Shown here: positions 26,928-28,492 of the stretch, in pieces
Layout of the letters: every line of letters starts with the position of its first letter
Position numbering within the stretch: the stretch's first letter is position 1
From: Thermostichus vulcanus str. 'Rupite'
GTDB lineage: Bacteria > Cyanobacteriota > Cyanobacteriia > Thermostichales > Thermostichaceae
Direction: 5' to 3'
Assembly: GCF_022848905.1 (NCBI RefSeq)
Contig: NZ_JAFIRA010000009.1
Location: 1-64,000 of the forward strand
Length of the DNA stretch: 64,000 bases
The notes under the pieces: model-generated
Database searches by the model: none
Told to the model about the DNA's origin: nothing
The model's input: the letters and a program-made list of their open reading frames with translations, nothing else
Program-made: the position numbers and the translations under genes

Positions 26928-27527
26928 TCACGGAGTGGAATGGCTGTGGGAATGTCCGTGACTGTGGCCATGACCCTGCCCATGAGCATCGGCTCCACCT
27001 GTCAGCCTTAGCAAAGGAGCGGGTTCGGGCAAATTATGGGGATCCTCTCCCGGCTGAGCCACCTGAATCCAGTGAGAGATACCCTCTTCGCACTCTTGCA
27101 CCACCGGGATCGGGATGGTCTCGCCGGGCCGATCCGGTAACTTGAGGCTGATGCTGAACTCGTGCATAAATTCATCCGGCAGGGGGCCACCGCTCCAGAT
27201 CACCTCAGCAACGGTTTCTGTGATCATCCGTCCATGAGACTCGTAGGGAGTTTCCAGTGGTTTTTTCACAGTCTCGATTTCCCAGAGAGGATGTACCATC
27301 GGCTGTACAGAAGTCGCTCCCTCTGGGATCTGGACCCGCAAGCGGGTGGTCGGGGATCCATCGCAACCATGGGGAACACGAAAGGTTAATTTGGCATAGC
27401 TGCCTGCCGGTGCCTCCTTGGGATTGACCGTGACGTGGGCAAAAGCGGGGGAAAGGGCTAGAAGAGCCGAACCGAACGTCAGAGTGAACTTCGTTCCCAA
27501 GGACAGACCCTTTTGCAACTGTGACAT
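26928..27527 (-). CDS. YcnI-type copper-binding protein (DUF1775) with His-rich tail
   Basis: A 199-residue exported protein. The signal peptide ends in SPAFA, so the mature protein begins with HVTVNPKEAPAGSYAKLTFR. An N-terminal His right after cleavage is the copper ligand in known YcnI proteins. The beta-sandwich domain spans residues 31-160 and carries VPHGCDGSPTTRLRVQIP and VIWSGGPLPDEFMHEF. The C-terminus has an unusual His/Gly/Ser tail (HGQGHGHSHGHSHSH), likely another metal site. It is last in a leftward operon with cytochrome c6 and a His/Met-ladder protein. A tandem duplication of the start region lies immediately upstream. Confidence 0.85.
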   Translation of the reverse strand: MSQLQKGLSLGTKFTLTFGSALLALSPAFAHVTVNPKEAPAGSYAKLTFRVPHGCDGSPTTRLRVQIPEGATSVQPMVHPLWEIETVKKPLETPYESHGRMITETVAEVIWSGGPLPDEFMHEFSISLKLPDRPGETIPIPVVQECEEGISHWIQVAQPGEDPHNLPEPAPLLRLTGGADAHGQGHGHSHGHSHSHSTP

Positions 27528-27560
27528 ATCAATACCTCAACTGCGACATATCAATACCTC
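27517..27560 (-). repeat. Tandem 22-bp duplication covering the start codon of the YcnI-type gene
   Basis: AACTGTGACATATCAATACC at 27517-27536 (plus TC) is repeated at 27539-27560 with one mismatch. On the coding strand each copy holds GAGG, a spacer and ATGTC. The upstream copy gives a six-residue frame MSQLRY whose stop ends one base before the true ATG at 27527. The upstream frame may therefore couple or dampen translation. Confidence 0.85.
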
Positions 27561-27609
27561 TCTGTGTTGATTCCAAATCTTTTCCCAAAAATCTTTCTCA
27601 AATCTGGAT

Positions 27610-27924
27610 TTAGGGATGATGGTGATGGTGGGATCCCTCCGACTCGACCACACTCATGCTGTGGTGCCCCCAACTGGATAGGCCCATGGACACCAACCCA
27701 GCGCTGACCAGGCCCATGGACACCAACCCAAAGGACAAGGCCCCCATCGCGACCAAGCCAATCGAAACAATCCCGTGGGTAACGACCCCGATGGCAACAA
27801 TCCCGTGGGCAGAAATGCCAACCGCCACCAAGCCATGCGCTCCCACCCCCACAGACAAGATTTTGCGGGGGGATCGCTCTCCCTCGGAGCGGCTTTCCGG
27901 AAGCAAAATCGGATCCCTAGCCAT
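27610..27924 (-). CDS. Decapeptide-repeat protein with His/Met ladder and His tail
   Basis: A 104-residue protein. Gly recurs every five residues from 26 to 86, with small hydrophobic residues between, as in beta-solenoid or glycine-zipper repeats. At every tenth position stands a metal-type residue: His 30, 40 and 50, then Met 60, 70, 80 and 90. A HH pair at 87-88 and a terminal HHHHH follow. This regular ladder of His then Met suggests soft-metal (copper or silver) binding; this is an inference. The gene overlaps the end of petJ (ATG overlapping the TGA stop) and precedes the YcnI-type gene. No signal peptide is obvious. Confidence 0.75.
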   Translation of the reverse strand: MARDPILLPESRSEGERSPRKILSVGVGAHGLVAVGISAHGIVAIGVVTHGIVSIGLVAMGALSFGLVSMGLVSAGLVSMGLSSWGHHSMSVVESEGSHHHHHP

Positions 27925-28301
27925 CAGCTCTTACTCCAGTTGTGCTCTGCCCGATCCAAAACGTAGGCTGCTACAGATTCGATCTCTTCCGGTTTGAGGG
28001 TCTTGCCAAAAGCAGGCATGGCTCCCTTCCCTTTCGTGACCTGAGCTTGGATCAACTCCGGCGTATCCACGTGGTACTCGTGAAGAGCATCCAGAAAGAG
28101 AGTTTTCGCTGCCACCAAAGAATTGCGTCCGCCCAAATGGCACCCGATACACTTGGCTTGAAAGACTTTGGCACCTAGGGCTAAGTCGGGCTCAGCGAAG
28201 GCCCCTTGTGGGTCGAGAAGGGCAATAAAACCCAACAGCAGAAGCACTCCAAAGATCTTAATAATCGGTTTGATAATTTTGATGATCGGTATTTTGAGCA
28301 T
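27924..28301 (-). CDS. petJ: Cytochrome c6
   Basis: About 125 residues. A long, Ile/Lys-rich signal peptide runs to AFA, and the mature protein starts EPDLALGAKVFQAKCIGCHL. The haem-attachment motif is CIGCH and the Met axial ligand is in GAMPAFG. Cytochrome c6 carries electrons from cytochrome b6f to photosystem I in the thylakoid lumen and replaces plastocyanin when copper is scarce. The ATG at 28301 is preferred to an upstream start at 28346 because it leads straight into the signal peptide. It heads an operon with a metal-ladder protein and a YcnI-type protein, pointing to copper-linked control. Confidence 0.9.
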   Translation of the reverse strand: MLKIPIIKIIKPIIKIFGVLLLLGFIALLDPQGAFAEPDLALGAKVFQAKCIGCHLGGRNSLVAAKTLFLDALHEYHVDTPELIQAQVTKGKGAMPAFGKTLKPEEIESVAAYVLDRAEHNWSKS

Positions 28302-28492
28302 CGTTCTGACCGTAAAAACAGGGCAAAGTTGGTACAAAGGCAACACCCAGAAGAGAAAATCTGAGACTTACCGGCAGTCATTGTCTCAAGCCGGCCCAGA
28401 GGGGTCAAAAGACAGCCTGTCAACCTCACCCCGGATACCATAGGGTCAGAATCTCGATCGTGCTCCGCACGACCCGCAGGATCATCGAGTCC

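Follow-up and report, generated by a model that had tools for sequence, protein, structure and literature searches.

A His/Met-ladder protein encoded with cytochrome c6 in Thermostichus vulcanus is assigned to the Slr0601 family and is a probable copper-handling member of the PetR/PetP regulon

Cytochrome c6 is the backup electron carrier of cyanobacteria and is made when copper runs out. In the published scheme, copper is sensed by the protease PetP, which acts on the regulator PetR. The PetR/PetP regulon is given as plastocyanin, cytochrome c6 and two proteins of unknown function (PMC7896320), and slr0601-slr0602 is named as a PetRP-controlled pair in a further report (PMC12382314); for these points we rely on a commentary and a later proteomics study. 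Direct PetR binding and copper-dependent expression are described for petE, petJ and slr0601-slr0602 in Synechocystis (PMC7896320, PMC12382314). At high pH, Synechocystis Slr0601 drops together with PetJ (PMC12382314). Two other described systems are close to the locus studied here: the copper-uptake operon ycnKJI of Bacillus subtilis, whose YcnI binds copper as Cu(II) (PMC8424229), and the Met/His-rich copper sponges such as CopM, a periplasmic, helical protein that is induced by excess copper (PMC12292863, PMC4182526).

We analyzed a 64,000-nucleotide stretch of the Thermostichus vulcanus str. 'Rupite' genome (hereafter, the window), in which petJ, the gene of a small His/Met-ladder protein and ycnI form a collinear three-gene operon on the minus strand (26928-28301). 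The first gene, petJ (27924..28301, minus strand), encodes a protein with a signal peptide, a CIGCH haem site and a GAMPAFG Met-ligand motif, and its reading frame stays open further upstream, to a GTG at 28346. The start of the ladder gene (27610..27924, minus strand) overlaps the petJ stop as ATGA, and a gap of 82 bp separates it from ycnI (26928..27527, minus strand), in agreement with the three overlapping or closely spaced genes of the preliminary description. Pfam identified the cytochrome as c-type; its closest solved relatives are 29 PDB sequences, all of them cytochrome c6 (best 1.3e-22), and its score for NCBIfam NF045930 falls under the curated cut-off (115.9 vs 135 bits). We class this PetJ as a divergent member of cytochrome c6. 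In all six genomes of the genus, it is the only cytochrome c6 that was found.

The second gene encodes a 104-aa protein with a GLTT-type pentad repeat. Gly occupies each fifth residue (26, 31, ... 86), and the potential ligands H30, H40, H50, M60, M70, M80 and M90 stand where the preliminary description had placed them. Seven 10-residue units, [IV]-x-[PAST]-[HM]-G-[IVL]-[IVL]-[SA]-x-G, make up the core (residues 22-91; 27652..27861, minus strand), the C-terminus reads GSHHHHHP, and neither Cys nor an evident signal peptide was seen in the protein sequence. The protein matched Pfam GLTT (PF01744) at 2.4e-19, with 69 bits against a gathering cut-off of 21, and both consist of Gly-led pentads. 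However, PF01744 has no function attached and does not require His/Met, whereas the ladder protein has a ten-residue unit with His/Met in every second pentad.

Homologues of the ladder protein were detected in 86 of 386 sampled cyanobacterial genomes (E <= 1e-9), and further homologues came from two orders. Sixty-four non-redundant cyanobacterial homologues gave an almost gapless alignment; this set was chosen by similarity together with a pattern that required two neighbouring His/Met rungs at least once, which is a bias, and no strong match (E <= 1e-9) was seen to be dropped by that pattern. Rungs 40, 50 and 60 were His/Met in 64/64 sequences each, rung 70 in 60/64 and rung 80 in 62/63, whereas the end rungs were His/Met less often (30/63 at rung 30 and 40/56 at rung 90). 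Taken together, rungs 40-80 held His/Met in 314 of 319 cells, compared with 39 of 3582 cells for the remaining columns of the core in these homologues. The residues at rungs 40 and 50 are exclusively His or Met, each of which can stand in for the other. The column-profile similarity was 0.83 at lag 10 and 0.68 at lag 20, against 0.49 at lag 5 and 0.48 at lag 15. Judged from this alignment, the ladder pattern is beyond chance. Distant Firmicutes relatives keep the Gly spacing, but most of their rung positions are taken by other residues, among them Lys, Ser, Thr and Leu. Because these Gly-spaced proteins lack the ladder, it is not a by-product of the repeat, and its explanation as a mere consequence of a Gly-pentad fold was rejected; when Gly-periodic homologues without His/Met were looked for, the cyanobacterial homologues proved to retain His/Met at the tenth positions. 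Three Firmicutes loci (L008, L009 and L010) encode long Gly-pentad repeats of this kind, devoid of the ladder, behind an XRE-type DNA-binding or other N-terminal domain.

Ladders of one residue type are common in beta-solenoids, where they can also arise for purely structural reasons. This background and the very hydrophobic ladder core (GRAVY 1.4) would fit a PetR-regulon protein whose rungs only pack in or along a beta-solenoid and which binds no metal, but serves photosynthetic complexes as a scaffold or regulator when copper is low. We consider this explanation unlikely: packing alone is insufficient because rungs 40 and 50 admit only His/Met, and never Leu, Ile, Phe, Asn or Gln; the Firmicutes repeats preserve Gly and not His/Met; and His/Met-rich tails are common across the ladder family. 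Metal binding by the ladder protein is likely.

AlphaFold predictions were obtained for the full-length protein and for the core. With seven sequences as input, the full-length protein was modelled as a helix of low confidence (pLDDT 51). For the core, predicted from ten diverse sequences, one of five models was all beta (pLDDT 87, pTM 0.67) and the other four were poor (pLDDT 37-43). A Foldseek comparison of the core model with PDB and viral libraries yielded no match at E <= 0.001, a family-profile search of solved structures returned chance matches only, to a viral fusion peptide and with no E below 0.69, and no ladder relatives were found in a search of viral contigs. On the basis of the core model, the repeat probably folds as a beta-solenoid. 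The ten-residue unit would fit coils of either 10 or 20 residues, and at 20 residues two ligand rows would lie on opposite faces. The periodic metal-binding solenoid that had been suggested earlier is plausible, resting on one of five computed core models. The hydrophobic repeat and the helical form of the shallow full-length model would also suit membrane glycine-zipper helices with His/Met that act next to the thylakoid as a channel or receptor for copper. We hold this to be highly improbable, as the full-length model reaches so low a pLDDT, a strict ten-residue unit would not line up its residues along a single side of an alpha helix, and the more diverse alignment gave an all-beta core model.

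In a Synechocystis-like genome (L124), the genes of an SpkC-like kinase and a thioredoxin-reductase-like protein precede the ladder gene, which is followed by the genes of a 138-aa protein, a split-intein DnaE-N and LepA. In Synechocystis, slr0603 is dnaE-N. According to published work, slr0599 is SpkC (PMC2176072), the slr0600 tag stands in the Synechocystis order (PMC4182526) and slr0604 is lepA (PMC7283877). Because the six-gene L124 order matches slr0599-slr0604, the ladder family is identified as the Slr0601 family, an assignment made by gene order, with a ladder sequence present in this close relative. Slr0601 of Synechocystis sp. PCC 6803 and the window protein have in common a promoter box upstream and a regulon shared with petJ. 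Unlike at the Slr0601 locus, however, the ladder gene of the window takes second place in an operon that starts with petJ and ends with ycnI, and slr0602 is not part of it. The first three rungs also differ, being His in the window protein and Thr, Met and Met in L124.

A PetR-type candidate operator, GACAGGCTGTCTTTTGAC, lies upstream of petJ in the window (28404..28421, minus strand) and is an exact match to GACANNNTGTCTTTTGAC. Its 3' end is overlapped by the -35 element of a promoter-like sequence (28380..28408, minus strand; -35 TTGACC, -10 GACAAT, spacer 17). The same promoter box, TTTGACAGnCTGTCTTTTGAC, precedes petJ in the window and in the remaining five genomes of the genus; elsewhere it precedes the ladder gene. 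A scan of the 300 bp ahead of the ladder core, with up to two mismatches allowed, found the box in 59 of the 77 loci that are not from marine picocyanobacteria and in 0 of 35 marine picocyanobacterial loci. Among the 1013 further genes at these loci, it preceded 10, of which six were petJ. A TATAAT-like hexamer follows the box-terminal TTGAC by 15-19 nt in 57 of 65 distinct boxes, against a mean of 19.6 after shuffling; at petJ and at the ladder gene alike, the operator therefore lies directly against the -35 element. The box was present upstream of the ladder gene or its operon in 30 of 33 genomes with a PetR-type gene and in 0 of 24 without one, counts that come from related genomes rather than independent trials and, for the PetR-lacking set, from three separate families.

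These data make membership of the ladder gene in the PetR/PetP regulon well supported at the level of genomic sequence. In the genome of the window, no matching box was found at petE (best, 4 mismatches) or upstream of petR; as petE would be repressed, a different arrangement is possible for that gene. The copper-sensing role that had been suggested as possible for the module was not supported: none was found, and in the published scheme sensing belongs to PetP. Slr0601 is already known as a member of the regulon, whereas the ladder, its conservation, the operator and the match with PetR across cyanobacteria appear new in the literature searched. Exact PetR-type boxes were also seen ahead of genes -1 and -4 of L201 and gene +3 of L208. 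Their products are a PepSY-like membrane protein, whose gene opens the ladder operon, a secreted protein and an ABC-permease-like protein; these genes are possible further members of the copper regulon.

The gene neighbourhood was then compared across cyanobacteria. petJ adjoins the ladder gene in six of six same-genus genomes and in L082 and L208, and is divergent from it in L007. Genes of the petR-petP types, encoding a BlaI-type regulator and an M56/M48-type membrane protease, lie directly after the ladder gene in L007, L038, L086, L087 and L183 and close upstream of it in L201; the genome of the window has plastocyanin and carries its PetR-PetP-type genes on another contig. That the petJ linkage is a quirk of the window genus was rejected, as linkage to petJ or petR-petP recurs in other families. 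Further neighbours are a multicopper oxidase and a DUF411 protein in L078, a DUF305 protein in L039 and, by sequence inspection, heavy-metal P-type ATPases near the ladder gene in L078 and L203. The genomic link to copper or cytochrome genes that had been proposed thus exists, as adjacency to petJ, to petR-petP and to copC-copD/ycnI. A tie to the choice of electron carrier, likewise proposed earlier, is strongly supported by the Slr0601 synteny, a petJ-type promoter that tracks PetR and the gene linkages. Two genomes carry two ladder genes each (L082/L086 in G359 and L208/L209 in G557); in each of them petJ comes after one of the copies, and the second copy of G359 has petR-petP directly after it.

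The third gene of the operon encodes a YcnI/DUF1775 protein (profile match 5e-48) with a signal peptide, a predicted mature N-terminal His31 and the His-rich tail already described for it, HGQGHGHSHGHSHSHSTP. Its alignment to 7me6 begins at the N-terminal His; of the Glu and Trp copper ligands of B. subtilis YcnI, the residue at the Glu50 position appears not to be Glu, and Trp137 falls outside the aligned stretch. A YcnI-type DUF1775 protein is common to this operon and to ycnKJI, and in three sister species (L035, L037 and L046) ycnI is followed by a CopC-CopD gene, which is YcnJ-like, as in Bacillus. No match to CopC was found in the window's own genome. In contrast to the B. subtilis operon, which is under YcnK, the window ycnI is under the petJ promoter, and its product has a His-rich tail where B. 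subtilis YcnI has a C-terminal membrane helix. A short tandem duplication, CAACTG[TC]GACATATCAATACCTC (plus-strand reading), is located at the ycnI start (27517-27560) and may affect the ribosome-binding region of this gene.

Picocyanobacterial loci show a different set of neighbours. There, the ladder is fused to DUF3721 or encoded directly downstream of a DUF3721 gene, and Fur-type, Znu-type ABC transporter and MerR-type genes lie nearby without a PetR box. These neighbours (Fur/Zur-type, Znu-type) point to zinc as much as to copper, and His-rich tails fit Zn or Ni as well as Cu. The ladder protein might accordingly serve cyanobacteria in the storage of, or resistance to, metals in general (Zn/Cu/Ni), and would then have joined the copper regulon in PetR lineages only. 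We find this quite unlikely, given that the recognisable metal neighbours outside picocyanobacteria are overwhelmingly copper genes, and that the box common to petJ and the ladder gene tracks PetR.

Several features of the picocyanobacterial variants were recorded. In L042, L101, L104, L132 and 12 more loci, the ladder has a C-terminal DUF3721 of the form AYPTxxxAxxxAKxxGCxGxHxMGxxWMPCxxH. A small secreted or lipoprotein-like DUF3721 gene, whose product has a His-rich tail, is directly upstream of the fused gene (gene -1 or -2). No papers on the GLTT repeat or DUF3721 were found in the literature searched. Gene -2 of L044, L104 and L042 (Prochlorococcus-like) encodes a porin-like protein of the outer membrane, whose N-terminus (HHDH...SHMNMGDSYPSTMFMG) is rich in His and Met; it is divergent to the DUF3721-ladder pair and has no Pfam match. 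The ladder copy of L019 (G033:C1:1375192-1375443) has a TGA inside the match and may therefore be a pseudogene or frameshifted, and a second ladder-like gene is found approximately 400 bp downstream of it.

Considering the sequence evidence as a whole, the ladder protein is a probable copper-handling protein. Our preferred reading, which we hold with moderate confidence, is that this Slr0601-family member of the PetR/PetP regulon acts at low copper as a copper-binding solenoid that holds or hands over scarce copper. At low copper, PetP would be inactive and PetR would persist, and PetR would then activate petJ and the ladder gene from the site abutting the -35 element; this is the sign of regulation that we infer for the operon. 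In the window, a single promoter would drive petJ, the ladder gene and ycnI. Rows of His/Met sites in the ladder protein would bind copper, presumably as Cu(I), and the protein would buffer, scavenge or pass on the metal while cytochrome c6 replaces plastocyanin. YcnI would serve as its periplasmic Cu(II)-binding partner, with a CopC-CopD importer alongside in the sister species. Cytosolic Cu(I) proteins usually use Cys, and the lack of Cys in the ladder protein is an argument against this scheme. Lineages without PetR, namely marine picocyanobacteria, the f35 family and G019, retain the ladder, so its function is not confined to the PetR switch. We further propose, as a possible but doubtful extension, that the beta-solenoid stacks His/Met in straight rows at a spacing of about one coil (4.8 A), forming a one-dimensional Cu(I) array that stores or relays copper and would represent a new metalloprotein class. 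CopM and other copper sponges resemble the ladder protein in their many Met/His ligands and their copper link. Unlike CopM, however, the ladder protein is a periodic repeat and is apparently co-expressed with cytochrome c6 at low copper.

The switch between plastocyanin and cytochrome c6 is a textbook case of metal sparing, and one of the two proteins of unknown function among the four in its regulon now gains a concrete, testable design, that of periodic His/Met ligands. The link between the ladder and the switch is conserved across many cyanobacterial families, and a likely operator sequence is defined. Our results suggest that cells make a copper-handling protein exactly when this metal is in short supply. 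Should the ladder prove to bind copper, it would offer an unusual metal-site architecture, relevant to copper biology as well as to protein design.
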